DNA of 64,000 bases from Natronomonas marina. Its GTDB lineage: Archaea > Halobacteriota > Halobacteria > Halobacteriales > Haloarculaceae. The position numbers and the translations under genes were made by a program. Below are positions 18,467-35,870 of the stretch, piece after piece. Within the stretch, counting starts at the first letter, position 1, and every line of letters begins with the position of its first letter. The DNA lies in NCBI RefSeq assembly GCF_024298905.1, contig NZ_CP101155.1, forward strand, positions 62,001 through 126,000, given 5' to 3'. Below the pieces are notes generated by a model, which saw nothing but the letters and a program-made list of their open reading frames with translations, was not told the DNA's origin and searched no databases.

Positions 18467-18577
18467 TCCCGAACACACCACTGCTTCAAGTGGTCACTCA
18501 GAACACAAAAAAGAGTTCCATCAACTCCGTCCCAAAGAACTACTACACAATCGGACATCAAGGGTATACAACTACAA

Positions 18578-19558
18578 ATGTCGGCTGAACCATTCAGCGA
18601 GTTCTCTACTCAGGCCGTGAGAATTCTGGAAGACGAATTGACGGATATTGGTGGTACCAAGCTCCAAGTCTCTCCAGAACTCCGATTATCCTACTTCAAC
18701 CCGTTCCTCTTTGACTCCGGTGAGAAATTCACCAAGCATCCATTCGACGCCATAGTATACCGCGAAGTAAGCTGGGAACCGACTGGGTTAGATCAGATTG
18801 ACGATCTCGAAAGATGGTTCCTCGAAGGAACCGACTCCGTTGAGATACCGATCGCAGTCGTCGAATTCACCGAAGAACAACCACTCACATCGAGTGCAGC
18901 GGTAAATCAGATCGCTCTCGAATCTCTTTCGAAATTTGACGCTCTCTTACCGATAAGAGTACGATACGCACGTTTCGGTAGCTCTTCTCCCACCTTCGAA
19001 AAAGACAACAACATCGTCTATTCCAAATTAAACTCAGCGAATTATTCCACAATACAGCACAGCATAGTCGAACCGATCAAGGCTCATATAGCCAGATATT
19101 CCGATCAAGAACTGCTTGAAACTTTCAATTTAGAAGAAAAGGTCCGACGATCCGATCCCGAGATATTCTACCACTTCAACGACGTCCTCTGGGCCTACAA
19201 TCACGACCGAAACAATATACTCGTAATCCTGCTGTCTGTCTACTTCGAGAACTATGTCAAAGACTCGCTAGAGGATTACTTTGAGGAGGCTCAAGACAAC
19301 CCTGCTGCCTCAAATTTCTATGACGACGACTGGGGATTCGACCGATGTCTCAACGGGTGCAGAAGCTTCGGACTCATCGAAGATGAGGACTACAACACCA
19401 TCAATAAAATCCGAGACGCAAGAAACGACTACGCCCACGACATCGAATCTTTCGACAGCACCTATAGCACTGACGCAGAAGACGAAGGACTCATCGAAGA
19501 CGGAATCCAATTATACGAAGAGCTGATTGGCGTCAAGAAATCTATTATAGACGAATAG
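18578..19558 (+). CDS. HEPN-like domain protein, candidate defence or RNA-targeting factor
   Basis: 326 residues. The N-terminal 150 residues are alpha/beta, with strands such as FDAIVYREVSW and IPIAVVEFTEEQP. The C-terminal part is helical and ends with IRDARNDYAHD near 278-288, an R-x4-H arrangement (R282, H287) typical of HEPN RNases. Codon use is AT-richer than the surroundings, suggesting recent gain. HEPN proteins often act as toxin or immunity RNases; whether this one is active is unknown. Confidence 0.55.
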   Translation: MSAEPFSEFSTQAVRILEDELTDIGGTKLQVSPELRLSYFNPFLFDSGEKFTKHPFDAIVYREVSWEPTGLDQIDDLERWFLEGTDSVEIPIAVVEFTEEQPLTSSAAVNQIALESLSKFDALLPIRVRYARFGSSSPTFEKDNNIVYSKLNSANYSTIQHSIVEPIKAHIARYSDQELLETFNLEEKVRRSDPEIFYHFNDVLWAYNHDRNNILVILLSVYFENYVKDSLEDYFEEAQDNPAASNFYDDDWGFDRCLNGCRSFGLIEDEDYNTINKIRDARNDYAHDIESFDSTYSTDAEDEGLIEDGIQLYEELIGVKKSIIDE

Positions 19559-19578
19559 CCCTAACTCACTCAATACGT

Positions 19579-20823: not shown

Positions 20824-22209
20824 GTGAGCTCCCAACTACCACCGGCACCGTCGGGTTATCCGGTCCTAAAAAACGCTGTCCAGTTCGCTCGCGATCCATT
20901 CACGTTTGTAGAGAGGGCGACGTCGGAGTGCGGAGACATCTACCGGATGGCTCTCCCGGCAGTCGACGATGTTTTTGTTTTCACTCACCCAGACCATCTT
21001 GACCGTGTCCTTGTGTCCGATGTCGAAGTCTTCGGGAAAACCGAGGACTATCAACGCGCGTTCGGGAACGGTCTCCTTTCGGTCGAGGGCCAGAAGTGGC
21101 GACAACAGCGTGATATGTTGCAACCGCTCTTCTACCGAGACCACATAAGAGACTACACAGAGCAGATGGTTGCGTGTACCGAACGACGTCTCGAAACGTG
21201 GATTGAGGGTGAAACACTAGATATGGAGCCTGAGATGAAGAACCTCACTCTGGAGGTTCTCTTTTCCACGCTGTTCGGTCGTTCGTTGGTCCCTGGCGAG
21301 GATCAAGAACTTCGTGATGCCGCTGACGGACTCAACGAATGGTTCACACCATCATCATGGATTCTGCCACCGTGGCTCCCGACACCAGCACGGCATCGAT
21401 TCAATCAATCCACGAAGCGCCTTCGTCAGGAGGTTCGAAGATTACTCGAAGAAGGAAGCGACCGAACAAGAATCTCAGAAGACGAGACAGGTGGGTCCGA
21501 GGGCCAATCGAACTCTAAGCAGGGTGCTCACTCAAATACTCCAGACCTGCTCACACAGCTCCAAAAGGCGCGTAATAGGGCGGATGGATCAGATCTTACA
21601 ATCGAAGAGATCGAAGATCAATTGATCACTATGGTTTTTGCGGGGCACGAGACGACCGCCGCAGCTCTCGCATTTACTTGGTACGCGCTGGCGACGAACC
21701 CAGACCTCCAAGAGCAACTTCATACGGAACTGGTCACAGTTCTCGATGGAGACTCGCCCACTTACGACGACCTCCAAGAGTTGGAGTTCACAGACCGAAT
21801 AATTACTGAGGCGCTACGGCTCTACCCACCAGTTCATACGATTCCGCGCCGGACGCTCACTGATGTCGAAGTCGGTGGATATCGGATTCCCGAGGACCAC
21901 GAAATCCACCTATCGATAATCCATATCCATCGAGATGGACGGTTCTATGATGAACCTATGGCGTTACGCCCGGAACGATGGACTGATGAGTTTGAGGAAG
22001 AACTCCACGACTTTGCGTACGCCCCCTTTGGTGGTGGACGTCGAACTTGCATCGGTCGGGAGTTCGCTCTCTTAGAAGCAAAAGTAGTCCTAGCAACGAT
22101 CGGGCAGAAATTCCAATTTGATTGGGAGAACGACGAAGCAATTGAACTCGAACCACGGGTTACAACTCAATCAAAAGAAGGCATCCCATTGCGAATTCGA
22201 CACCGTTGA
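20824..22209 (+). CDS. cytochrome P450
   Basis: 461 residues, full length. The I-helix motif is AGHETT (about 273-278), the ExxR is EALR, and the haem-binding loop FGGGRRTCIG has the ligand C409. It starts at a GTG; no earlier in-frame ATG gives a better N-terminus, and there is no membrane anchor. P450s are monooxygenases using NAD(P)H through redox partners, which are not seen in the window. The divergent HTH gene is the likely regulator. The substrate (fatty acid, terpenoid or xenobiotic) cannot be told. Confidence 0.93.
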   Translation: MSSQLPPAPSGYPVLKNAVQFARDPFTFVERATSECGDIYRMALPAVDDVFVFTHPDHLDRVLVSDVEVFGKTEDYQRAFGNGLLSVEGQKWRQQRDMLQPLFYRDHIRDYTEQMVACTERRLETWIEGETLDMEPEMKNLTLEVLFSTLFGRSLVPGEDQELRDAADGLNEWFTPSSWILPPWLPTPARHRFNQSTKRLRQEVRRLLEEGSDRTRISEDETGGSEGQSNSKQGAHSNTPDLLTQLQKARNRADGSDLTIEEIEDQLITMVFAGHETTAAALAFTWYALATNPDLQEQLHTELVTVLDGDSPTYDDLQELEFTDRIITEALRLYPPVHTIPRRTLTDVEVGGYRIPEDHEIHLSIIHIHRDGRFYDEPMALRPERWTDEFEEELHDFAYAPFGGGRRTCIGREFALLEAKVVLATIGQKFQFDWENDEAIELEPRVTTQSKEGIPLRIRHR

Positions 22210-22942: not shown

Positions 22943-23126
22943 GCCGGCAGCAACTCGCTCAGCGTTACGAAGCACAGATATTGAGAACACATCTCCAAAG
23001 TACTCACCGCTCAATTAGGCACTCCTTGGACGAGAAACGGATATTTAGCACCAGTCTAACTGAATGTCGGGCGGTCTGAAGAACACTTCGCTTTTATTGA
23101 TGTGGACATAGAATTCCTCCCCGGAG

Positions 23127-23957
23127 ATGTGCAAAGTCGACGATCTCATCGCAGAGTATGGGTTAACAGCCCCCGGATCTGACTATGACTCTGTAGATGA
23201 CTACCTCGCGAAACGGTGGACTGGAACTGACGGCCGCACTTCAGAAGGATATAAAAAACTCACAGACTGGTTCAACAAACGTGTTCTCAAGTCGATATAT
23301 GAAAACTACGGGAGATCAACTGTTAGCATCCATCTGGACCGAGAATACGATGTTATTGTAAACGAAGATAACATCCAACGCGCCGAGCTCGCGGCCGACC
23401 TCGAAGGCGACGGGATGGACATCGACGAACTCAAGAAAACTCTCGTCTCTCACGGTACAATCCGAAATCACCTCAAAAACTGTCTCGAAGTCGAAAAAGA
23501 CACTCAGTCCACAGCCAATTCCACTACTACGACTCGAGAGAAAGCCATCGCGTCGGCGAAACGAATGGCTGCCTCAAAAACAGAAAACATCCTTCCAGAA
23601 CTTGCCAAAGACGGCGTTGTTCCTTTTGCAGACCAAGCCACCGTCGACGTCGAAATCAGACTACAATGCCCCAAATGCGACACACGGGTCCCCATCGAAG
23701 ATGCAATCAAGCGAGGATACGTCTGTAACGACCATATGACGGATCCAACTAATACAGACCCACCCAACAACTCAACTCCAGATCCGTCGGAGAATACCGA
23801 ATCTGACGAAAACGATTCACACCACCAATCAGATACAACGATGAATTCTGTGCCCTCATCACAAACCTCTCTCCTGCTCTCTCTACTGGCGCTCGGAGCC
23901 ACTTCGTTCTCGTCCCAATCGCCTATGCTAATAGATAGTATGCTCAACACCGCGTAA
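23127..23957 (+). CDS. RdfA-like protein (rod-determining factor family)
   Basis: 276 residues. The opening MCKVDDLIAEYGL, the following LAKRWTG, DWFNKRVLKSIYENYG and the later VSHGTIRNHLKNCLEVE match the haloarchaeal RdfA family, which is needed for rod-shaped cells in Haloferax. A CPKCDTRVP and C-x2-H-like segment adds a zinc motif near 187. The last 70 residues are Asn/Ser/Asp-rich with a weakly hydrophobic end. It stops two bases before the SMC-related gene, the usual neighbour of RdfA genes. A plasmid copy could alter host shape or act in plasmid segregation. Confidence 0.78.
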   Translation: MCKVDDLIAEYGLTAPGSDYDSVDDYLAKRWTGTDGRTSEGYKKLTDWFNKRVLKSIYENYGRSTVSIHLDREYDVIVNEDNIQRAELAADLEGDGMDIDELKKTLVSHGTIRNHLKNCLEVEKDTQSTANSTTTTREKAIASAKRMAASKTENILPELAKDGVVPFADQATVDVEIRLQCPKCDTRVPIEDAIKRGYVCNDHMTDPTNTDPPNNSTPDPSENTESDENDSHHQSDTTMNSVPSSQTSLLLSLLALGATSFSSQSPMLIDSMLNTA

Positions 23958-23959
23958 CC

Positions 23960-25750
23960 ATGACCTGGAATCTAGAAATCGAAAATATCGCAGGCATCCA
24001 TCGAGGGGAGGCTACGATCGAATCCGGTGTGAACGCCGTCCGAGCGAGCAACTGGCAAGGAAAATCGAGCTTCCTCACCGCAATTGAAACAGCCTTCGGG
24101 ACTGAAACAAGCCTCACTGAAGGCCAAGATCACGGTCACGTTGAGCTCGAAATCGACGACACCACCTACGCTGTCGATCTTGCCCGTACCAACGGCACGA
24201 TTACACAATCCGGCAATCCATACCTCACCGATGATGTCGATCGTGTCTGTGCTGCCCTCTTTGCGTTCCTCGATGAGACCAATGAGGTCCGGCAAGCCGT
24301 CCGTATGGGTGAAAACCTTGAGGACCTCCTCACACGTCCCCTCGATTTCGAGAACGTCGACGAGCAGATTGCCGACCTCAAAGCCGAACAGAAACAGGTC
24401 GAGGCCGAACTCGAGCGAGCCCAAAACGCTGCTAACCGCCTCCCGCGCCTCCAAGAGAAGGTCACAACGCTCGAATCCCAACTCGAAGACCTCCAAGAAG
24501 AGTGGAACGAGCTCGACAACGAAGCTTCTTCAGATAGTGACGCTCGAGACGAGCTGAGTAACCTCCGCGCCCAGCTCGAGAAGACCAAGACAGACATCAA
24601 CCGGTACGAATCAACCGCAGATCGCGTCGGGGATGAACTTGAAGCAAAGAAAGAGGAACTTGAGATGTTGGATGTCCCAACACACGAGGAGCTCGAAGAC
24701 GACCTCGAGGATCTCCAATCTGATCTCCACGAAATCGAACGCGATAAAGAACTCCTCCAGTCGATCTATGAGGTAAATCAGCGCGTTCTCGAAGAAGACC
24801 GTCTCTCGCTTCTCACAGACGTCTCTCACGATATGCTCTCTGACCAGCTTGCGTGCTGGATTTGTGGGAACGACACCTCTAGTGAAGAGGTCGAGGCACA
24901 GTTAGACAGTATCTCTGACCGTCTTAACTCACTTCGCGACCAAGAGTCGACTCTCCGCAAGAAGGTAAACGAGCTTCAAGAAAAACAACGGACCGTACGG
25001 GACGCGGAGCGGAAAGAACGCGACCTTCGCGACCGCATCGGAGAGCTTGAATCCCAGCTTGATGACGCACAGACGAATCTTGAATCGGCCAGAGAACGAA
25101 AAGCTTCCCTCGAAGCACAGATTGACGAACTCGAAGGTCTGGTCAGTGAGACGCAAGACCACGCGACTGACCTCCAGAGTGAGATCAAATACATGGAAGC
25201 CGAGCTTGAAGACGCTCGTGGCGAACTTGAGACAGTCAAGTCGGAAGCCTCGCAGCGTGATGTCCTCGAAGAGGAACTCGAATCTCTCCGCTCTGAGGTC
25301 GAGGACCTCCGAACACGCAAAGAGCGTGTGAAGCGAAATACTCGGGACGCATTCGATTCGGCGCTCTCCGACATTCTCACGAGATTCGACGTTGGGTTCG
25401 AGACAGCACGCCTCACCAACAACTTCGACCTCATCGTCGCACGTGGAGGCCGCGAAGCTAGACTTGACGCTCTCAGTGAAGGCGAGCGGGAACTCCTCGG
25501 CATCATCGCTGCCCTTGCCGGCCACGAAGCATTCGATGTCGCTGACCGGGTTCCCGTTATGCTACTCGACGGGCATACCGGTCTCGACGATACCAACATC
25601 CACCATCTCGTCGATTACCTCTCCGAACGCGTCGATGTCCTCGTCCTCTCCGCCTTCCCCGAGTACGACGCCTTCGAGGGTCACGAAGTCACTCCAACCA
25701 ACTGGGAGACCATCTCCTACGGAGACGATGTTGAGGAAGTCGTAGGATAG
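23960..25750 (+). CDS. archaea-specific SMC-related protein
   Basis: 596 residues. An N-terminal ATPase half carries a degenerate Walker A, ASNWQGKSS (about 29-37). Two long coiled-coil arms (about 130-260 and 315-460) flank a Rad50-like zinc hook CWIC (C299, C302). The C-terminal half has the signature LSEGERELLG (near 504) and a Walker B ending LLDGHTG (D537), where a Gly replaces the usual catalytic acidic residue. Coupled to the RdfA-like gene. Probably a structural or chromosome-organising ATPase partner. Confidence 0.88.
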   Translation: MTWNLEIENIAGIHRGEATIESGVNAVRASNWQGKSSFLTAIETAFGTETSLTEGQDHGHVELEIDDTTYAVDLARTNGTITQSGNPYLTDDVDRVCAALFAFLDETNEVRQAVRMGENLEDLLTRPLDFENVDEQIADLKAEQKQVEAELERAQNAANRLPRLQEKVTTLESQLEDLQEEWNELDNEASSDSDARDELSNLRAQLEKTKTDINRYESTADRVGDELEAKKEELEMLDVPTHEELEDDLEDLQSDLHEIERDKELLQSIYEVNQRVLEEDRLSLLTDVSHDMLSDQLACWICGNDTSSEEVEAQLDSISDRLNSLRDQESTLRKKVNELQEKQRTVRDAERKERDLRDRIGELESQLDDAQTNLESARERKASLEAQIDELEGLVSETQDHATDLQSEIKYMEAELEDARGELETVKSEASQRDVLEEELESLRSEVEDLRTRKERVKRNTRDAFDSALSDILTRFDVGFETARLTNNFDLIVARGGREARLDALSEGERELLGIIAALAGHEAFDVADRVPVMLLDGHTGLDDTNIHHLVDYLSERVDVLVLSAFPEYDAFEGHEVTPTNWETISYGDDVEEVVG

Positions 25751-26026
25751 CTCTCGCTGCTCACTATTGATTTTATACCCCCGCGGGGGGTTAATCTCTC
25801 AACGACTTTTTGCGAAGACGCGACTTCTGGCTCCCATATACGACTCTGTCCGACCGCCCTGGCGTTCACTCATCACGCCCACGAGTAGCTGCTCTACTGT
25901 TTCCCAATCGCGGAAAACACTTTGTCGCCGGACCACATATTCGCAGGTAAGTTCGCCCCCTATGCGGCCAGTAGCACTCGAAGCTACCATCATCCGGGTT
26001 ACTATCCAGTCCCGGAGTGGTGATGT
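25751..26026. other. intergenic region with GC palindrome
   Basis: Holds TTTTATA followed by CCCCCGCGGGGGG and TTAA at 25771-25795, a TATA-like box fused to a GC palindrome. A minus-strand frame here is basic and not convincing. A second palindrome lies just after it at 26044, before the alternative start of the next gene. Confidence 0.55.
25771..25795. promoter_or_regulatory. TATA-like box plus CCCCCGCGGGGGG palindrome
   Basis: Same layout as 26039-26062 and 51821-51847: TTTAT or TTTGAT, one or two bases, then CCCCCGCGGGGG, then a short A-rich or GTGAAGG segment. Likely a promoter/operator or a transcript-leader hairpin. Confidence 0.5.
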
Positions 26027-28147
26027 ATGACCTCCCGGTTTGATACCCCCGCGGGGGATCAAGACAACCCCCGCCCATCCGACGAGCCTTCGGTGACTAT
26101 CACTAGGGCTACACCTCGGCAGTTTTCCAGCCTCTTCGTCGCCTTCCTTCTCCTTTCGAGTGTCTGCTTCTCCACGATTGCGGTAGTCGCGACCAACGAA
26201 TCCAACTCTACCGCGCAACCGCCGGTTGACGGGAATGCTCGTGTATTTGTCGCGAGTGACCGCGATACGGAGGCTCTCGGCATTCCGGGTGGCGGTCGTG
26301 GTGGCATTCTCCTCCAGTATGTTGTGGAGGCCAACGCGTCGACTGAAAATCTCTCTCGTGCTGTCGACACCTACACGCTTACGACCAATCCAGAGACGCG
26401 CGTCCGTATTGATGGCTCACCCCGGACACTGCAGGAGTATCGACTTGACCAGTTGGCGAGAGTTGAACGAACAAACTCAACGAGTCGGTGGCCGGCAAGC
26501 GCACCGGACCGGGAGGATAGCATATTCATCAAAGACGGCTTCATCGCGTATATGGGTGCGACCAGCGCTGCCGAAGTGAACGCCCCAGGAGCGGAAACAA
26601 ACGGCACTTATCTAATGGGGCCAGACGGGCGTGTCCTTGAGTACGTCGACTACCGCGTCGCCCTCCCAGAACCAAATACGACTACCCGCTATGTCCGCGA
26701 AACAAAGGATGTCACCCTCAACATCCCTGCGCCGGAGGATAACTCGTCGGACGACGTACAGACCGTCACCAAGACAGTTGAGTTCGAGACGCTCGACGGT
26801 CACACTATCACGCGTACCGTCAGCGCCACCGGTCGTGGCCCGCTAACCGTAAATCGCTCTGTGACGGCCGTCGTCGGCGGCTATCGCACTAACACCACAT
26901 ACGATCTCGCCTCACAACGGGTTGAGCGTAACCTCAGCATCGACGATCAGACGTGGTCGAAACACACGACACCAGAAACATCGGCACGAGAGGCCCGGTA
27001 TATCGACTACGCAAACGCTCCCCCTTCGGATGGTGAGAGGCAACGTCTAGAGCTTCAGGCGACGATCAACGTCACCGCGGAAGTCACCACTGATCACTAT
27101 TTCTACCATCCGCACAACGATACGTGGACGTACACTCACACGGAAGTCAATGCCACCTATGATGAGCTCACCGTTACCGACGATCGGCCAGCCCACGTTG
27201 TCCCACCAGACAGCGTCTCGATTTCCCAGCGCGTAATTGAGGAACCACACGACCGCCGCTCCATCGTCCTCTCTATCGAGGGCCCGGAGCATCTCTCTGA
27301 ACGGGCACTTTGGAGTTGGGCCGCCCTCAACGTAGAAGGAGACTCGAATGCTAGTGCCCAACGCCTAACGAACGTCTGGCAGGTCTACGGTGTCCGTCAG
27401 TACCGCTGGGGCGAAACAACGTCGAACTGGGACACAGACCCACAACGTACGGAGTTCCCACCAACACTTGCCCTCCGACTCACTGCTCGACAACCGTCCC
27501 CAAGTGTTGAGGCCGTCGGAGAAACGGATGTGTATCGTCACGGACGGGTGACGGATCTCCGCCAGCGCACTGTTCCTGGCGTCTCGAAGCGGGCGACCCT
27601 GGCGGAAAATGTGAATCTCACTACGGCGACCGCCAACCAGACCTCGAGAATTGTCATCAGGGATGCCCCCGGTCAGATCACCTCAGTAACGTCGGTCTTC
27701 GGGGATGAAATACCCGTCTCGACAACAGAGGTCACCTCGATGGAGGATTCGTCGCTCACCTACACAGTGATTCCGCCGGCAGAAGGGGAAGAAAACGAGC
27801 CGCCGGAACTCAGACTCCGTCTTACTGGCCCAGACGGAACTCCACTCCCGGATCGGAAACTGATCTTGACCGGGGCGGTCGAATCCTCAGTCACTACAAA
27901 CGACAACGGTGTCGCCTACGCTACGTTCGATAGTGTGACGATCACCGCGCGCTTCCCTGGTGACCCATACACAGAGAATCACGACATCTACTACTCGTCC
28001 AGCCACACAACCGCGATCTCTCCCGGAAACGGGAGCCTGATTGTTGATCTCTGGACGTTCTTTTTACAGCCAGTACAGGCCGCTCTCCTCTCGCTGGCTG
28101 TGAGCGTAGGCTTGCTCGTCGGGGTCGGCTGGTATACCATCAAGTAG
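26027..28147 (+). CDS. secreted, membrane-anchored surface protein of the transfer cluster
   Basis: 706 residues in the longest form. A GTG start at 26093 may be truer: it gives MTITRATPRQFSS directly before the hydrophobic helix LFVAFLLLSSVCFSTIAVVA, and lies just behind the palindrome at 26044. The body is a Thr/Ser/Asn-rich exported domain with many N-glycosylation-type NxS/T sites. An Ig-like beta domain (about 600-670) ends with a C-terminal anchor (SLAVSVGLLVGVGWYTIK). It heads the T4SS-like cluster, so adhesion or mating-contact function is plausible. Confidence 0.75.
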   Translation: MTSRFDTPAGDQDNPRPSDEPSVTITRATPRQFSSLFVAFLLLSSVCFSTIAVVATNESNSTAQPPVDGNARVFVASDRDTEALGIPGGGRGGILLQYVVEANASTENLSRAVDTYTLTTNPETRVRIDGSPRTLQEYRLDQLARVERTNSTSRWPASAPDREDSIFIKDGFIAYMGATSAAEVNAPGAETNGTYLMGPDGRVLEYVDYRVALPEPNTTTRYVRETKDVTLNIPAPEDNSSDDVQTVTKTVEFETLDGHTITRTVSATGRGPLTVNRSVTAVVGGYRTNTTYDLASQRVERNLSIDDQTWSKHTTPETSAREARYIDYANAPPSDGERQRLELQATINVTAEVTTDHYFYHPHNDTWTYTHTEVNATYDELTVTDDRPAHVVPPDSVSISQRVIEEPHDRRSIVLSIEGPEHLSERALWSWAALNVEGDSNASAQRLTNVWQVYGVRQYRWGETTSNWDTDPQRTEFPPTLALRLTARQPSPSVEAVGETDVYRHGRVTDLRQRTVPGVSKRATLAENVNLTTATANQTSRIVIRDAPGQITSVTSVFGDEIPVSTTEVTSMEDSSLTYTVIPPAEGEENEPPELRLRLTGPDGTPLPDRKLILTGAVESSVTTNDNGVAYATFDSVTITARFPGDPYTENHDIYYSSSHTTAISPGNGSLIVDLWTFFLQPVQAALLSLAVSVGLLVGVGWYTIK
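26039..26062. promoter_or_regulatory. GC palindrome at the 5' end of the transfer cluster
   Basis: TTTGATACCCCCGCGGGGGATCAA is an almost perfect 24-base palindrome. It overlaps the ATG-start form of the surface protein and lies 31 bases before its GTG start, which favours the GTG start with this as regulatory DNA. Confidence 0.5.
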
Positions 28148-28261
28148 CCATCCCTCGCAATATTCTCTCAAGATTGACGACACCCACTTCTTCGTCATTC
28201 AGCCGGCCTTGCGAACTTCAGTTGACGATGAGATCGTAGCGCGACTCACTGTCCTCGGTCA

Positions 28262-30331
28262 ATGGCTATCTCCGATTGGTTCGGGGATAGAAGTTATAGG
28301 TATTGGACAACGTATTCTGACACAGCGATTCACATGGAGCGCTCTCCAACCACCCTTAGTAGGTGGCTCTACCGTGTCGGTCGCCGTCTTCGCCACCGAA
28401 AGTCTAGGGACTCAACAGAAACCTCCGCAATGGAACCGTCGACGTCATCCAGCATCCTCTCGGCCAAAATTCAAGACCGTCTCTTAGGTATCGCACCTAC
28501 AGCTCAACAAACCGTTTCCTCCACTGCGGCGATGGCTGCCCTCCCGATCATTCCGCTATTTAATCCCCTTGACCCAGAGGATTGGTTCGAGGGGATCGTC
28601 AACACGCTCGCGACCGGCTTGACGAACGTCCTGGGCGAGGTTTTCGTGGGAATGGTCCAGGAGTTTCTCGTTATCGACCCGTTGTACTACCAGGAAGGAG
28701 CGAATGCAACTTTTATACAGAATCTCCAGTACTCGCTGATTCTCTTTCCGACCGTCATCGTCCTCGGAACGATCGCGGCACTCTTTTCGGAAGCCCCAGA
28801 GGGCTCCTATTTACGGCAGGGAATCCGTATTGTTAAAGCCCTCTTCGCACTCGCTCTCATCCGTCCATTCCTCCACGTCGCTGTCGTCTTCACGAATAGC
28901 GTTACGAAGCTCGTGATGCCCGAGACTTACGCGGTCTCCCTCGCCGGCCCCGCCCTCAACAACGCCATCGGCGATTTGATGGGCTCGGCTATCGCCGCTG
29001 TGCTCGTTTACCTCGCCGCCGGTACAATCTCTCTCATCGCTATCGCTCTCGTTGTGATGATCCTCTTCCTCCGCATCTTTATGATCCATCTCGTCTACAC
29101 CGCTTTCCCGATTCTGCTTGTTATGTGGTACACCGACTGGGGACCACTCCGGTACGCGAACGACGTCGCTATGTTTGTCTTCAAGGTCACAGCGTATCTC
29201 CTCCTCGCGGGGCCGCTCATCGCGCTCGCTCTTCAGACCGGCTGTAGTATGTCTGCCCCGGACATCTGTGTGGCTAACGCGAGCGGGGCTCACGGCCCGG
29301 AAGCACTCACTGCCGGAATTGACCCATCGCAGAATAAGCTCGTCCTTTGGAAGCGGTTCCTCGGCTGGCTTTCCGGCCTCGGTCTCGCCGGTTTCGTCGG
29401 GATCCAGGCCCTGTCGATGGGTGGGAGTTCCGCCGGTCATCTTCTCGGGTTTAGTGGCCTGAGTGCGTTACGCGGCGGTGGCAGCGGTAGTCCGTCTTCG
29501 TCCGGAGGTAGTGGTGGAGGAGGTGGCGGTGGACCGACTCCGTCCGGTGGCGGTGGCGCCGGACAGCACACCCTCCGAAACTTCGGCGGCGGTAGCGGAA
29601 CCGGCCCAAAGGCGTATGGAGCGACTGGCTCAGCAAAACCCGAATTCCACCCCCGACAGGCAGCTAGTTCGGCGAAAACTAATCTGAAACAACGTGTCTC
29701 ATCGGCACGGGATACTGCACGGAGTAACGCGCAGCGCGCCTACCGTGGCGTAAAATCACGGAAAGAATGGATGAGTCAGGCTACGTGGGGACAGGGCGCT
29801 CGAGCTGGGGCCGGATTAGCTGGCGGTGGCGTGGCGCTCGGTGCTCGCGAGGCAAAAGCGGGTGTGAGCCACGTGAAAAATAATCTCAACGAGCCGATTG
29901 CGAATTGGCCCGGCCACGCCTATCGGCGGGCGAAGAACGGCAATTGGAACCCACCGAATGACGATCTGGGTGCAAGTACGGAAAGCGAAGTCACAGCGGA
30001 TAATGAAGTGTTGGCACTACCTGAGGGGGATCCGCCTCTCCCAGAGGGTGAGACTCTGACCCCAGAGTATGAAGACAGAGCACTCGATCCCAAGGAAGCT
30101 CAAGCGGTTGCTGGCGGGTCCGACATCGAAGACGCGAATCCGCATTCGGTCAACGAATCAGTCCAAGCTTGGTACGACCGCGTGAAGGCAAAGGACCAGC
30201 AAAAAGTGGAGGCGATGCGCCCTGACCTCATCAATCGAGATGTCTCCCCGCCTTCCTCCTCACCATCGGAGGAACAAATCCAGGAGTCCGTCGACGACTA
30301 CGTCGATAGAACCCGCAACACAGACTCATAA
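28262..30331 (+). CDS. VirB6/TrbL-like multi-pass membrane protein
   Basis: 689 residues. From about 75 to 360 there are seven or so hydrophobic helices, including LFLRIFMIHLVYTAFPILLV followed by a TDWGP turn, as in TrbL/VirB6 channel proteins. A Gly/Ser-rich linker (about 400-435) leads to a hydrophilic, basic then acidic cytoplasmic tail. VirB6-class proteins form the inner-membrane channel of type IV secretion systems. It is the second gene of the cluster. Identification rests on topology and neighbours. Confidence 0.7.
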   Translation: MAISDWFGDRSYRYWTTYSDTAIHMERSPTTLSRWLYRVGRRLRHRKSRDSTETSAMEPSTSSSILSAKIQDRLLGIAPTAQQTVSSTAAMAALPIIPLFNPLDPEDWFEGIVNTLATGLTNVLGEVFVGMVQEFLVIDPLYYQEGANATFIQNLQYSLILFPTVIVLGTIAALFSEAPEGSYLRQGIRIVKALFALALIRPFLHVAVVFTNSVTKLVMPETYAVSLAGPALNNAIGDLMGSAIAAVLVYLAAGTISLIAIALVVMILFLRIFMIHLVYTAFPILLVMWYTDWGPLRYANDVAMFVFKVTAYLLLAGPLIALALQTGCSMSAPDICVANASGAHGPEALTAGIDPSQNKLVLWKRFLGWLSGLGLAGFVGIQALSMGGSSAGHLLGFSGLSALRGGGSGSPSSSGGSGGGGGGGPTPSGGGGAGQHTLRNFGGGSGTGPKAYGATGSAKPEFHPRQAASSAKTNLKQRVSSARDTARSNAQRAYRGVKSRKEWMSQATWGQGARAGAGLAGGGVALGAREAKAGVSHVKNNLNEPIANWPGHAYRRAKNGNWNPPNDDLGASTESEVTADNEVLALPEGDPPLPEGETLTPEYEDRALDPKEAQAVAGGSDIEDANPHSVNESVQAWYDRVKAKDQQKVEAMRPDLINRDVSPPSSSPSEEQIQESVDDYVDRTRNTDS

Positions 30332-30485
30332 CGATTCAACCTGAATCCCTCCACTGGTACCGAGTCCCCTCCAGGACCACATTAGAACCAGTAATTGACC
30401 CTTCTATGCTGTTGCTCGAGGGGCTTATTCCCGGCTGATATTTTAAATAGCAGAACGCGGTAGATTAGTACAGAAACACAAACAC

Positions 30486-31664
30486 ATGGGTTCCGAAACG
30501 ACCACCGCCCGTCGCGTGCTGGCGACTCTCCCTAGGCACCCACTCTCGATCTCGGATTTCATCAGCCTCCAAGCACCCGATAGTTTCGAATCCACCTCCA
30601 CCTTGGACGGAACCGACATTCACACCCGAGTCGACAACTCCAACATTCAAAATCTGGGCGGCGTCGTCGCTATCGGTGATGACTGGGTCGACCGTGAGGG
30701 CATCGTTGGCTTCCGCTTCATCGCCGGAGACACTTGGTTCGGTGTCGGCTTCGAACCAGAGACTGGCTGGACCATCCTCACCGAGGATTCCATCGACGAG
30801 AAGTTCTCGCAGGCTATCGATGATCGTATCGCGACTTGGGCAACCACCTTCTACGAGGAGGAAACCGTCCGGCCGTCGTTCTATGATACTTTCGCGGCCG
30901 CCTGTGTGTCCCAGCTTCCACCGCGCCCGCTCCAGCACGGTGAACTCGGGGAGATACTCACTCCTGGGGGGATTTACCAGGAGTCCTTCGTTGAGGTGGT
31001 TCCCGTTCCCATCATCCAGATCGAACACACCGACAAGGTCATCGCCTTTTTGATGAAGGTTACTGCCCCTGATCGGTCCGGTCACGTCGTTGAGTATGGG
31101 TACCGCCTCCACACCGACGGCGTCTGGCGCAAGGCATGGGCTGACATCATCCCCGGCGAAGAGACCGAGGAAGTCGGTCTTCGTGATCGGCCAGTCGCCA
31201 CTCTCATCGATGACGCCAATCAGGATTACTTGAATGAGATCGACTTACTCGTGGAGCCTCCGACCGATCACATCCAGATCGAGGTCTACATCGATGTGAT
31301 GTCACCAGAGCCAGCACCCGGTGGTATGTGGACTGCGGCATCTGACTGGTTCCCATCCATCGAGTACGGTGCTCCTATCGTGGGCCTAAATACTGATGAG
31401 AATCCGGGCGAATTGACCGTCGTCGGCTACCTCGAGGGAACGGAGACCGCCGTTTATGTCGGTCTCAACCGCCAGGATGACACGTGGGAGGAGATCATTT
31501 CTTTCGACCGCCCCGCCGACAAACGACAGGACACGGAAGTTGTCAATGCTATCGACGGCTGGCTTCAGAGCCAGTACGGCGCTCTCGTTGGGCCGTCGCA
31601 CCACCCGCTCATCCAGCTCACCGACTGGGAGTCGAAGGTTCCCGACCTTTTTGCTTCCAAGTAA
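30486..31664 (+). CDS. hypothetical protein of the transfer cluster
   Basis: 392 residues, acidic, soluble, rich in beta strands with many Trp (DDWVDREGIVGFRF, GDTWFGVGFEPETGW). No signal peptide or helix is visible, and the family is not recognised. An AT-rich promoter-like TTTTAAATAG lies 40 bases upstream. Position between VirB6-like and VirB3-like genes suggests a system component or a cytoplasmic accessory. Confidence 0.6.
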   Translation: MGSETTTARRVLATLPRHPLSISDFISLQAPDSFESTSTLDGTDIHTRVDNSNIQNLGGVVAIGDDWVDREGIVGFRFIAGDTWFGVGFEPETGWTILTEDSIDEKFSQAIDDRIATWATTFYEEETVRPSFYDTFAAACVSQLPPRPLQHGELGEILTPGGIYQESFVEVVPVPIIQIEHTDKVIAFLMKVTAPDRSGHVVEYGYRLHTDGVWRKAWADIIPGEETEEVGLRDRPVATLIDDANQDYLNEIDLLVEPPTDHIQIEVYIDVMSPEPAPGGMWTAASDWFPSIEYGAPIVGLNTDENPGELTVVGYLEGTETAVYVGLNRQDDTWEEIISFDRPADKRQDTEVVNAIDGWLQSQYGALVGPSHHPLIQLTDWESKVPDLFASK

Positions 31665-31732
31665 TCGACCTCGATGTCAATCGGGGAGAGAATTTTTAGG
31701 CATTCACGACACGTATTCACACGAGACGTCCC

Positions 31733-33010
31733 ATGAAACGGTACCCAGTAGCCGGCCAGTTACTCGAGCATCGCCTCTTCTTCGGACTCAGCGTCAGCGA
31801 TCTCGAAGTCGGCGTAATCCCACTCGCCGCTATCATCCTTGCGTCCGGTATCAACAACGTCTTCGAGCCCTCGTTCAGTGGGCTACTTACTATCGGAAGC
31901 GGGATTCTCGGCCTCCTCGTCGGCTTGTACGTTCTCTGGCGAACACCTGCCGGTCAGACCCCTCGCGAGTGGCTCTTCGGGGCTGCAAAACACATCGTGG
32001 GCCCGGATCGCTATCTCTGGCAACCCGTCGAACGCGGTCTCGTTTCTGGACAGCACCTTGACGACATCCGTACTCTACATTCTGAGGATTCCGAAACCTC
32101 CGACGACAACAGCGATCCGGACCCAGAATCCTCGTCCTCGAGTGGCCCCCAGCAGTCCGCCTCAGATGATAACAGCGGTCAGCAAATCGTAACTGACGGC
32201 GGGCAGATGCACTCTCGCGAACGCCCACAGCGTGACCCGAGCCAGTACTACCACCAGCTCACGCAGGAGGAAACAACAACGCAGGCGCAACTAGCTTTCG
32301 AGTATGTTCGCGAAGACGGCATTCTAGTCACGGAGAGCGACAACGAGGAACCTGCGTACGTCGGCCTTGTTCACATCACCCCGACGAGTTGGCTTTCCCT
32401 CGACGATGAAGGACGCCAGTCTACGATCAACGCGTACGCTGACGTTCTCCGTGGAATCTCCTACCCCTTCCAAGTGCTCGCCCTTCCTCGTGAATTTGAT
32501 CTGACGACGCACTTCGAGGAGATCGAACGTGCAGCCTACGAGGCCGAGGATCCGCCAGACATTATGCAGCTTGGTCGGTCGACGTACATCGACTGGCTCA
32601 ATGAGTCGGTCGGTACCCGGCGAGTCAAAGTTCGTGATTTCTACATCGCCGTTAGGGTCGAGAGTTCGCACGTCCGAGAACAGTCCTATGGACACTCTAC
32701 AGACGTTGTTTCGGGATCTCTCTTCCAGCGAATCGTCGGCTGTGTCAATTCTGTCACCTCCTCAGTTCGTTCTCGGATTGGCTCGAATACCGACGACGAC
32801 GTCATCGAACGACAGTGTATTTCTGAAGTTAGAAGTCGGCAACACGAGTTTGCCGAAGCACTCCCCAGGACCGGTGTTCAGACCGAAGTGATGGACGACC
32901 GGGCAGACGTTCTGGACGTCCTCTACCGCTACTACAACCACGCTGACTCACCACTCGACGAGTATTCTCCCAAATCCTACGCGGAAGTTCTCCCAGCTCG
33001 CCGGTCGTAG
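31733..33010 (+). CDS. PrgI/VirB3-like protein with VirB4-N-like domain
   Basis: 425 residues. After KRYPVAGQLLEHRLFFGLSV come two close hydrophobic helices (about 24-65), then TPREWLFGAAKHIVGP, a PrgI/VirB3 pattern. A disordered acidic linker (about 115-165) is followed by a soluble domain (190-320) with strands like AYVGLVHITPTSW and PFQVLALPREFD, similar to N-terminal domains of VirB4/TraC ATPases. VirB3-class proteins dock VirB4 to the membrane. It immediately precedes the VirB4 gene. Confidence 0.7.
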   Translation: MKRYPVAGQLLEHRLFFGLSVSDLEVGVIPLAAIILASGINNVFEPSFSGLLTIGSGILGLLVGLYVLWRTPAGQTPREWLFGAAKHIVGPDRYLWQPVERGLVSGQHLDDIRTLHSEDSETSDDNSDPDPESSSSSGPQQSASDDNSGQQIVTDGGQMHSRERPQRDPSQYYHQLTQEETTTQAQLAFEYVREDGILVTESDNEEPAYVGLVHITPTSWLSLDDEGRQSTINAYADVLRGISYPFQVLALPREFDLTTHFEEIERAAYEAEDPPDIMQLGRSTYIDWLNESVGTRRVKVRDFYIAVRVESSHVREQSYGHSTDVVSGSLFQRIVGCVNSVTSSVRSRIGSNTDDDVIERQCISEVRSRQHEFAEALPRTGVQTEVMDDRADVLDVLYRYYNHADSPLDEYSPKSYAEVLPARRS

Positions 33011-33089
33011 TGATTCCCGACCATCTCAGCATTTCTTCCTCCATCTTCTCGACTGTTCCTGCGGCGCTTGAGGTATCACCACTGCCAGC

Positions 33090-33131
33090 GTTACCCCACG
33101 AGTGAATTATCTCCGCACTTTGTGGGGTAAC
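33090..33131. promoter_or_regulatory. inverted repeat GTTACCCCAC-N22-GTGGGGTAAC, copy 3
   Basis: Ten-base perfect arms, spacer 22 bases, lying 99 bases before the chosen VirB4 start. It shares the arms with 7706-7751 and 17815-17860, which links transfer ATPase expression to two small-gene units. Confidence 0.65.
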
Positions 33132-33230
33132 TCGCTGTCCTCCCTCAACCCACTTGCCGAAACGTCTACTTTGTGGAAAGCTATCAACGGGCGAAACCAT
33201 TTACCGAGGCACTACGTATCCCACGATAGC

Positions 33231-35870
33231 ATGAGTAGCGTCCCAGTAGCCTGGGTACTCGGAATAGCATCCGCTACCGGGCAAGTGCAACAGATCATTC
33301 AGACGATCCAACGAGCGATTCAAGGCGGCCCGAACGCCCCGTCACCATTCATTCTTATCGGCGTCGCCGTCGGCGTCGCCCTCCTCCTCGGTCTTGGTAT
33401 TCTTGCGTCACGCCGACTTGTCGGTTCGAGCCAACATCCATCTACAAACGCAACGAACGGCGCACCTGAGACGGAGGTCGACAGCGGCCGTCTGAATCGT
33501 CTTCTCTCTTGGCTTCCCGGTGGTTCTGGATCTATCCCTGGTGCCGGTACCTCCGCCCGAACAGATCCAGCCAACGTCAACCTCGAGAAAATCGACGACG
33601 AAACCTTCGACCGCGCCGTCAGCATCCTCGAACAGGAAGGCCGAGAGACGAGTCGGGCAAACATCCGTGAACAGGTTGCTCGCCTCATCGACTTTGAGGC
33701 CGCAGACCCCGACGAATTCCGCCTTGGACTCATCCAAGACGCCGACAGCCAAGCCCAGATCGACCAAGCGAGCGTCGCCCCACCAAGTATCGTCCCCGAA
33801 GATCCAACCACTCTCTACCGGAACGGCGAATTCGTCCGTATCCTCACTCCCGCAAGCGCTCCTGAGAGTGTCTTCGGTGGCTGGCTTATCAACCTCACCA
33901 CGACCAATCTTGATGTCCGCGTCAGCTATCATCACACTCCCCGCGACCCCACGACGATTCGTGGTGCCCTCCAGGACCGTCTCACTGAACTCCAGATCGC
34001 CCTTTCTCGGAAGGAGGAAAAGGGCGCGACAGACTATCACGAAGACCTCAACCGCCGGGAAGAACTCGATCGTCTCCTTCGTCGCCTCACCGAAGGGACG
34101 ACTCGACTCTACGACATCGGTATCTACATCGAAGTCGCTGGCAGTACCCGCGATGAACTCGAAGAGACCGCTCGGAAGGTCCAGCAACTCGTGGCTGACC
34201 GAGACGTCGAACTCGTTCCCCTTGAATTTCGCCAACTTGAATCCCAAGACGCGATCGCACCTGTCGTCTCCGACCCCATCCAGAACACGGACCTTATGGA
34301 ACACGACGCGGCGGCCACCCTCTTCGGCTTCGTCGAGCCCGCCATCGCTCACGAGGACGGTGTCCTCTATGGCTTCGATGAGACTGGAAACCCTGTCATC
34401 GTCGACCGATACAGCCTCTCCGGCTTCTCTAAAGTCATCACTGGGAAGATCGGGTCCGGAAAAACGTTCGCCGCGAAACTTTCTCTCTGGCGCCGTCTCC
34501 TCATCGACCCTGAATTCACGGCTATTGCATTCGACCCCACCGGTGACGACTTTGTCGACTTCTTCGAGACCCTCGGTGGCGATGTCGTCACCTTCGGTGG
34601 CGACGTCACCATCAACCCGCTCGAAATCCACCGCGGTACGGGTGAGGCTGAAGACCCCTACAAGGACAAACTCCGTTCCTTGACGGGGATGGTGCGGACG
34701 TTCTACGATCAGAGCGGCGACAGCCTGAGCGCCGAACGTGCTGGTCTCATTCAGCAGGTCTTCCACCTTGCATACCTTATGTACGGTATCACTTCCGAAC
34801 CCCGCACTCACGAACGCGAAAACCCCACTATGGAAGACGTCCTCGACATCCTCAAGGCTCTTGCTGATGGTGAGGACCCACTTGAATTCGTCAGCTACCA
34901 AGGAGACGCTACCGAACTTCACCGTGAGGAACGCGACGAGCTCGATGAACGCGTCGACGAAGTCACCTCCCGACTTCAGTCGAAGGACGATAGCAACCTC
35001 AAGTCCGAAGCTAACAGCCTCCTCCGCTCGCTCGAAGCCTTCCAGCCAGGTGGCGTCGCTGCGAACCTCTCTGGGAAGACGACCGTCGACCTCGAGGACG
35101 AGCGGCTCATCGTCTTCGATATGAGTGCCTTCCAGGATACCAATCAAGCCCCTCTCCTTCAACACGTTATGCTTGATTGGAGCTACCAGCGGGCTCGCGA
35201 GAACTCCCGCCGGATGGAGGTCATCTTCGAGGAGGTTCACTACCTGCTCAGTCAGAAATCTGCCCGCTCGCTCATCGGCCTGTTCACCCGCCATTCCCGA
35301 CACTTCAACGCTGGCTTGACGCTCATCTCCCAGACTGCAGAAGAATTCATGCAGGAGACCGACGATGTCCACTCACCACGCGCGATCTACGACCAGTGCG
35401 ACATCAAGCAGCTGTTTTACCAGGAATCAATTTCAGACGAGGTGATCGACTACTACGACCTCTCCCCAGCTGATGTCGAGGCCATCCAGAGCTTTGCACG
35501 TGGACAGGAGTCCGAGTTCAGTGAATGTCTCCTGAGCGTCACCGGAATCGCGCGTCGACACCTCGAAATCCACGCGAGCGAGCTCACGGTTGATCTCCTT
35601 ACTGAACCTGAGACGGCCGCCGCAACCGCTCAGTTGGTTGAACAGCGTCGCCAACAGGCTGCCACCGCCCGCAGTGAACAGACTACCACCCAACCAGAGG
35701 AGAACGCCGAGACTGCCGGTGGTTTGGGCGAAGAAGCTGCTGAGAAGGAAACTACTGACTCCAGTACGACACCCAGCGAAACGAGTGAGCCACCAACTGA
35801 CCCCATCACAGACGGAAGTGGGGGCTCATCCTCCTCTGGGGACACTGCTGACGACACTAATTCCGAATAA
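33231..35870 (+). CDS. virB4: VirB4-like conjugative ATPase
   Basis: 879 residues from the ATG at 33231; the longer frame would begin inside the inverted repeat. One N-terminal helix (FILIGVAVGVALLLGLGILA) is followed by a VirB4 N-domain. The ATPase core carries Walker A GKIGSGKT (405-412) and a Walker B RMEVIFEEVHYLL (near 660-672). The C-terminal 90 residues are a Gln/Thr/Glu-rich tail. VirB4 powers pilus or channel assembly in type IV secretion. This gene and its neighbours mark a conjugation-type system in the archaeon. A long minus-strand frame over this gene is a shadow. Confidence 0.88.
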   Translation: MSSVPVAWVLGIASATGQVQQIIQTIQRAIQGGPNAPSPFILIGVAVGVALLLGLGILASRRLVGSSQHPSTNATNGAPETEVDSGRLNRLLSWLPGGSGSIPGAGTSARTDPANVNLEKIDDETFDRAVSILEQEGRETSRANIREQVARLIDFEAADPDEFRLGLIQDADSQAQIDQASVAPPSIVPEDPTTLYRNGEFVRILTPASAPESVFGGWLINLTTTNLDVRVSYHHTPRDPTTIRGALQDRLTELQIALSRKEEKGATDYHEDLNRREELDRLLRRLTEGTTRLYDIGIYIEVAGSTRDELEETARKVQQLVADRDVELVPLEFRQLESQDAIAPVVSDPIQNTDLMEHDAAATLFGFVEPAIAHEDGVLYGFDETGNPVIVDRYSLSGFSKVITGKIGSGKTFAAKLSLWRRLLIDPEFTAIAFDPTGDDFVDFFETLGGDVVTFGGDVTINPLEIHRGTGEAEDPYKDKLRSLTGMVRTFYDQSGDSLSAERAGLIQQVFHLAYLMYGITSEPRTHERENPTMEDVLDILKALADGEDPLEFVSYQGDATELHREERDELDERVDEVTSRLQSKDDSNLKSEANSLLRSLEAFQPGGVAANLSGKTTVDLEDERLIVFDMSAFQDTNQAPLLQHVMLDWSYQRARENSRRMEVIFEEVHYLLSQKSARSLIGLFTRHSRHFNAGLTLISQTAEEFMQETDDVHSPRAIYDQCDIKQLFYQESISDEVIDYYDLSPADVEAIQSFARGQESEFSECLLSVTGIARRHLEIHASELTVDLLTEPETAAATAQLVEQRRQQAATARSEQTTTQPEENAETAGGLGEEAAEKETTDSSTTPSETSEPPTDPITDGSGGSSSSGDTADDTNSE

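Follow-up and report, generated by a model that had tools for sequence, protein, structure and literature searches.

An intact RdfA and Sph1-type ASRP gene pair on a haloarchaeal plasmid, with a candidate membrane link

What does a pair of genes related to cell shape do on a plasmid? The question is raised by a stretch of 64,000 nucleotides from Natronomonas marina (NZ_CP101155.1, positions 62,001 to 126,000; hereafter the window), in which a gene of the RdfA family is followed by a gene for an archaea-specific SMC-related protein (ASRP). Few shape factors of archaea are known; RdfA and the Sph proteins belong to them, and their mechanism is unsettled. In the cited passages of PMC10869688, RdfA (HVO_2174) and Sph3 of Haloferax volcanii are needed for rods, and 42 of 54 RdfA genes are encoded beside an SMC-like gene. 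The initial annotation of the window described a plasmid copy with degenerate ATPase motifs, which may have diverged toward segregation or toward altering the shape of recipient cells during mating. The pair proves to be an intact, selected and tightly spaced unit of RdfA and an Sph1-type ASRP, carried as cargo of a plasmid lineage found in several haloarchaeal genera.

The two genes were confirmed at 23127-23957 and 23960-25750 on one strand, with a 2-bp gap from stop to start. The first product matches the Pfam profile for RdfA, PF21811, at 132 bits against a cut-off of 27 bits (E 3e-38), and residues 2-200 cover profile positions 1-194 of 195; the search that could have placed it outside the RdfA family thus came out in favour of membership. 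It has no NCBIfam match at E 0.01, no match to solved structures at E 1 and none in PHROG at E 0.001. The adjoining product matches the NCBIfam profile for ASRP, NF045487, at 495.7 bits against a cut-off of 300 bits (E 2e-148), and the expected SMC-related partner is therefore present. It possesses an N-terminal Walker A motif, a C-terminal signature and Walker B motif, and a coiled coil between them, with the first Gly of Walker A and the Glu of Walker B replaced. In an AlphaFold model (five input rows for each protein, comprising the window and related loci sequences) the coiled coil is confident and the CxxC lies at its apex. Near-identical genes on plasmid NZ_CP101163.1 are already annotated as rdfA and ASRP. 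No ASRP relative was confirmed in viral_contigs (2 and 33 pattern matches, none confirmed) or in phages, and a viral origin was rejected. The features of the pair are as follows, omega being the ratio of nonsynonymous to synonymous substitution rates (dN/dS).

23091..23098, + strand: TATA-like stretch some 30 bp ahead of the rdfA start codon (ATG), seen by eye, which suggests that the pair may have its own promoter
23127..23957, + strand: rdfA, RdfA-family protein of 276 aa in the tail-bearing Sph1-type branch (PF21811; tree; omega of the core 0.11-0.29 in four comparisons)
23667..23735, + strand: zinc-knuckle-like motif of RdfA, C181-x2-C184 ... C200-x2-H203, predicted to bind metal; C181, C184 and C200 are invariant in 29/29 aligned RdfAs
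23736..23954, + strand: 73-residue C-terminal extension of RdfA, a polar linker and then a terminal segment of mild hydrophobicity (best 19-residue Kyte-Doolittle mean 1.14)
23960..25750, + strand: Sph1-type ASRP of 596 aa (NF045487, E 2e-148; omega 0.12-0.16; AlphaFold coiled coil confident, heads not)
24044..24070, + strand: P-loop (Walker A) region ASNWQGKSS, residues 29-37, with the first Gly replaced and G-K-S kept
24854..24865, + strand: zinc-hook CxxC (C299-C302), flanked by two long helices and placed at their apex (alignment; AlphaFold model)
25472..25486, + strand: signature motif LSEGE, residues 505-509 (ASRP alignment)
25553..25573, + strand: Walker B motif PVMLLDG, residues 532-538, catalytic Glu absent (ASRP alignment)
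25777..25791, no strand: GC-rich inverted repeat directly past the ASRP stop, seen by eye, a putative terminator

On the host chromosome there is a further, divergent pair (C1:2.83 Mb; RdfA 262 bits, ASRP 699.5 bits), to which the window RdfA and ASRP are 25% and 30% identical, and the supposed divergence from a chromosomal pair is borne out. The relation between the two was examined in an alignment of 82 ASRP rows, some of them repeat fetches; a 199-aa fragment (L028) was excluded because of its length, and duplicates were removed before counting. All 82 rows possess the zinc-hook CxxC. The sequences fall into two types. The Sph1 type possesses GKSS in 39/39 distinct N-termini and LSEGE in 22/22 distinct C-termini, and its residue pair at Walker B is DG in 18, DR in 3 and DE in 1 of the 22. 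The other type, which includes the host chromosomal ASRP, possesses NRTS in 10/10 N-termini and LSESE together with DS in 17/17 C-termini. The residue after the Walker B Asp is thus G, R, E or S, and the catalytic Glu is kept in neither type except at locus L014 (DE). Because the type labels are defined by these motifs, the motif counts alone are circular, and a tree of 65 RdfAs serves as an independent check. The tree sets the same groups apart (35 rows against 30) with a support of 100 in the Shimodaira-Hasegawa-like approximate likelihood ratio test (SH-aLRT), the only support computed by this quick method, without bootstrap; its loci are the best-scoring matches of each type, with middle-scoring RdfAs left out, so a third type may exist. 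The RdfA of pNRC200 groups with that of the window, and the Halobacterium salinarum row forms a long branch. The phylogeny of plasmid and chromosomal pairs therefore separates the window type from the chromosomal type. By way of the pNRC200 Sph1, the GKSS type probably corresponds to the Sph1 group in the cited passages of PMC11276520.

These types alter how the ATPase motifs of the window ASRP are to be read. The reported degenerate Walker A holds as regards the first Gly, which is replaced in ASNWQGKSS, but not as regards G-K-S, which is kept, and the sequence is a trait of the whole sampled Sph1-type group. DG in place of DE is likewise seen (LLDG), and is again a trait of the group rather than a peculiarity of the window copy. 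It is in the host chromosomal ASRP that the P-loop lysine and the signature Gly have been lost (NRTS and LSESE, respectively), with DS in place of DE; the idea that the plasmid copy degenerated from a canonical one is thus reversed. The type split indicates which Sph proteins can be ATP-binding machines, namely those of the Sph1 type, and which may be structural.

Comparison with four close copies gives an omega of 0.11-0.29 for the RdfA core, 0.12-0.16 for the ASRP and 0.25-0.45 for the RdfA tail, the last being rough because each comparison holds only 2-16 changes. The pair is under purifying selection and is kept intact. Decay of the plasmid copy was considered and is ruled out by dN/dS, with omega well below 1 in four of four comparisons. 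The window lineage nevertheless appears to have changed fast in the past, as its RdfA branch is long (1.24).

A distinguishing feature of the window RdfA lies at its C-terminus. In 30 rows of the tree the zinc knuckle is followed by an extension of 47-73 residues, with a best 19-residue Kyte-Doolittle mean of 1.14-1.55, whereas the other 35 RdfAs have 1-36 residues there, and the three of them with enough residues for a score give negative values. The 30 tail-bearing RdfAs form one branch (SH-aLRT 85), and the tail is present in 30/30 rows of that branch. The neighbourhoods of the pairs were examined by tblastn in 60 stretches of 20 kb for SecY, DUF106, a 72-aa gene and VirB4. SecY or DUF106 lies in the same stretch at 15/19 tail-bearing loci vs 0/41 tail-less loci, the latter comprising 2 + 19 of the Sph1 type (by RdfA score) and 20 of the other type. 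DUF106 here is the EMC3/TMCO1-like family PF01956 (E 3e-39), and the 72-aa neighbour is a protein with two CxxC motifs and only sub-threshold zinc-ribbon matches. The test was prompted by SecY, DUF106, TBP and transporters near the pairs of five plasmids, from Halobaculum magnesiiphilum, Halorubrum BOL3-1, Natrinema pellirubrum, Haloarcula pelagica and Haloferax lucentense, and SecY or DUF106 is present in 4/5 of these. In 7/7 genomes picked from those that have SecY next to the pair, SecY matches twice and no more, once at the pair; in the host genome it matches once. Across loci L012-L015, L083 and L116-L132, SecY and/or an EMC3-type DUF106, often with the 72-aa gene, lies beside most tailed pairs, together with transporters and mainly on plasmid-sized contigs. 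Of the new leads that this locus gives, the most useful is the association of tailed RdfAs with a second SecY or DUF106, which makes RdfA as a membrane partner a testable proposition. In a scan of literature listings and the cited passages, no paper on a plasmid SecY/DUF106 link or on two Walker types was recognised.

The explanation preferred here, held tentatively and as a whole at slightly less than an even chance, is a membrane-held, ATP-binding clamp that affects both shape and gene conversion. The ASRP would dimerise through its zinc hook to form a coiled-coil clamp. As the P-loop lysine and signature are kept and the catalytic Glu is absent, it would probably bind ATP and turn it over slowly. 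RdfA would be its zinc-knuckle partner, with the tail tethering the clamp to the membrane. Among the tail-bearing relatives examined, most would have this tether beside a plasmid-encoded second SecY or EMC3-type insertase; in the window, any membrane partner would have to come from the host chromosome, because the plasmid has neither SecY nor DUF106. The clamp may then act on envelope growth, and so on shape, and on DNA near the membrane, and so on gene conversion, both effects having been reported for Sph proteins.

Several observations weigh against this explanation. SecY, DUF106 and the 72-aa gene were not found by tblastn on the whole 147-kb window plasmid, and for that reason the window pair looks like a runaway from the SecY/DUF106 setting; the context is borrowed from relatives that are 44-53% identical in RdfA. 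Four of the 19 tail-bearing loci (L118, L121, L133 and L173) lack SecY and DUF106, although L121 ends near a contig end and has the 72-aa gene, and L173 has no Sph1-type ASRP match and lies outside the tree. The stretches are interrelated, and the counts are therefore not independent and the Fisher value overstates certainty. The tail is only mildly hydrophobic: its 1.14 in the window, and the 1.14-1.55 of the whole branch, fall short of the value of about 1.6 usually expected of a membrane helix. AlphaFold gave no usable model of RdfA (mean predicted local distance difference test score, pLDDT, of 35), the ASRP heads scored below 50, and no interface was seen. Finally, no experiment on the tail-bearing branch was found in the literature scanned.

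Published phenotypes bear on the preferred clamp and on a competing account, in which the chief role of the pair is in recombination or gene conversion among the genome or plasmid copies of polyploid cells, with effects on shape secondary. In the cited passages of PMC11276520, all four Sph deletions of H. volcanii reduce gene-conversion survival; for the sph1 deletion, survival is about 20% in the results of that paper and about 10% in its discussion. Cells with sph1 or sph4 deleted have a wild-type-like shape there, and those with sph2 deleted are mostly rods. The lowered gene-conversion survival with wild-type-like morphology in the sph1 deletion favours a DNA factor, as do the zinc hook and coiled coil, which resemble those of Rad50, and the peak of H. 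salinarum sph1 expression at septum formation, interpreted as late DNA repair in the cited passages of PMC5120986. However, the gene-conversion assay uses protoplast fusion, and survival could mirror envelope damage; overexpressed H. salinarum Sph1 turns H. volcanii cells into rods (PMC10869688, cited passages); and the hydrophobic RdfA tail, with SecY and DUF106 near relatives, suits a membrane role better. A DNA factor of this kind is accordingly possible but doubtful. Reports on sph3 disagree: its deletion gives rods according to the cited passages of PMC13286277 and PMC10570808, opposite to those of PMC10869688 and PMC11276520, and the phenotype is taken here from the original report (PMC10869688) and PMC11276520.

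The plasmid that carries the pair was also characterised. The window is part of a 147,277-bp contig (C2) of a two-contig, 3.99-Mb host genome. C2 is 99.99% identical to plasmid unnamed2 of Halorarius halobius ZY10 (NZ_CP101163.1) over its full length save one 1.4-kb segment, and the ParA and Orc1/Cdc6 genes annotated on the ZY10 plasmid are also present on C2; the description of the pair as plasmid-borne is thus correct. The 1.4-kb segment, at about 23850-25284 of the ZY10 plasmid, is absent from C2 (about 24191-24205), with 15 bp repeated at the join, and resembles an insertion element. Host and ZY10 are different species, given that the DNA around the host chromosomal secY, presumably a ribosomal-protein operon, is 80% identical in ZY10 over 4.9 kb, 82% over 1.6 kb and 71% over 2.2 kb, and that the best ZY10 match to the host chromosomal ASRP is 73%; yet the plasmid is nearly identical. 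Either a very recent transfer or an assembly mix-up accounts for this, the host genome being listed with 4.33% contamination. Spread over several genera does not depend on the ZY10 match, because four further copies, with ASRPs 96-97% identical and flanks that are collinear along most of their extent, are found in Halorubrum sp. CSM-61, Halobellus clavatus, Halobellus rufus and Halosimplex salinum. Among 72,556 plasmid records, RdfA has 92 matches and ASRP 130 (E 1e-5; counts per gene, not of side-by-side pairs), and those listed (60 per gene) are all haloarchaeal. With RdfA and ASRP on many plasmids, and Sph1 beside rdfA on pNRC200, the plasmid location of the pair is not unusual.

Downstream of the pair lies a transfer-like cluster.

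25750..26027, no strand: junction at which three of the four close copies become more similar to the window (from 94.8-98.0% to 98-100% identity directly past it), L018 being the exception
26027..35870, + strand: transfer-like cluster encoding proteins of 706 aa, 689 aa, 392 aa and 425 aa and a VirB4-like ATPase (33102-35870), outside the pair and given as context

The VirB4-type NCBIfam matches (E 1e-42 and 1e-33) fall under their curated cut-offs. To the extent that the contigs cover the region, the pair adjoins this cluster in 5/5 of the plasmid copies compared; the plasmid lineage is present in several genera; and Sph1 overexpression makes another genus form rods (PMC10869688, cited passages). 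All three would suit a plasmid pair that alters recipient shape and thereby aids mating and its own spread. However, VirB4 or the 706-aa gene lies near the pair at 0/25 related loci, 0/20 loci of the other type and 0/20 further loci, and no pair is annotated next to either of two related VirB4 clusters examined (2/2), one on a Natronosalvus and the other on a Haladaptatus plasmid. A union of pair and transfer cluster beyond this plasmid lineage is ruled out by the 25 related loci and these two clusters. Identity to L016, L017 and L019, moreover, is 94.8-98.0% at 22.9-25.9 kb and 98.4-100% onward to about 28-30 kb, and this step in three of the four close copies points to two blocks with partly separate histories. 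Recombination appears to have mixed these plasmids more than once, since L018 has no rise and identity to L016 drops back to 95.6-97.6% between 30.4 and 34.1 kb. GC content is 0.47-0.53 upstream, 0.49 at rdfA, 0.57 at the ASRP end and 0.55-0.61 beyond, and is weak evidence for a junction because the rise is gradual across the ASRP. The mating role put forward in the initial annotation is thus weakly supported and very unlikely, and the data do not need it.

The same step bears on the idea of hitch-hiking cargo, in which a stress or envelope accessory pair left its island and landed by the transfer cluster with no plasmid-specific role. The GC content of rdfA resembles that of the upstream accessory block, SecY, DUF106 and the 72-aa gene are absent from the plasmid, and the long branch of the window lineage would also fit; but omega well below 1 in 4/4 comparisons indicates that the pair is used by its hosts, and it is still beside the cluster in 5/5 copies, which leaves this account quite unlikely. 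Three further observations concern the surrounding DNA. At 18495-19573 of the window, about 1 kb is swapped for dissimilar sequence in L016-L018 and shared with L019, as in an exchanged accessory gene. A cytochrome P450 at 20824-22209 (PF00067, E 1e-82), with a FilR1-type regulator beside it, travels in the block that also holds the pair. To the right of the transfer cluster, at 38227-46263, a 2,678-aa open reading frame, hypothetical in ZY10, possibly encodes a giant surface protein.

Segregation, the other role proposed earlier, would make the pair an SMC specific to the plasmid, which it would partition or condense. The architecture is SMC-like, and 16/18 tail-bearing pairs lie on contigs below 600 kb, some of which may be chromosome fragments. 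However, the plasmid has its own ParA and Orc1/Cdc6, and the family is not plasmid-specific: PF21811 is found in 125/145 genomes drawn from the class, and the host also has a chromosomal pair. No evidence for such a role was found (kleisin- and ParB-like partners were not searched for), and it is highly improbable.

A bolder extension of the membrane-held clamp can be stated, although it is unlikely to hold. Haloarchaeal plasmids may carry a membrane-tethered SMC-like system, a tailed RdfA with an ATP-binding Sph1-type clamp, which cooperates with a second Sec translocon and an EMC3-type insertase of its own in remodelling the envelope of the host, the window version having shed the translocon on a conjugative-type plasmid. 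If true, a machine of the SMC family would be joined to protein insertion.

Comparison with known systems places the window pair as follows. Coalescin (ClsN) of Sulfolobus belongs to the ASRP family by the published tree and has a zinc hook; unlike the window protein it is crenarchaeal, and an RdfA partner is unmentioned in the cited passages of PMC9389158, from whose description, rather than from sequence, the comparison is drawn. RdfA-Sph3 of H. volcanii (HVO_2174/2175), compared through the description in PMC10869688 only, consists of the same two families in adjacent genes. The window ASRP, however, follows the Sph1 type, and the Sph tree in the cited passages of PMC11276520 sets Sph1 apart from Sph2-4; the Sph3 phenotype is therefore not directly transferable to the window, and the rod phenotype should not be extended to every plasmid gene annotated as a rod-determining factor. 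The rdfA-sph1 pair (Sph1/Hp71) on pNRC200 of H. salinarum NRC-1 is likewise a plasmid tandem pair with GKSS, LSEGE, DG and a CxxC hook, and its RdfA belongs to the same main clade; in contrast, its ASRP is 37.5% identical to that of the window, its gap is 104 bp rather than 2 bp, and its RdfA is tail-less, with 4 residues after the knuckle. The five plasmid pairs named above differ from the window in identity (RdfA 45-51%, ASRP 47-60%) and in setting, having DUF106 or SecY (in 4/5), TBP and transporters among their neighbours and no VirB4 match within the stretch, but they share with it a tail-bearing RdfA, an Sph1-type ASRP and a 2-bp gap (a 4-bp overlap in Haloferax).

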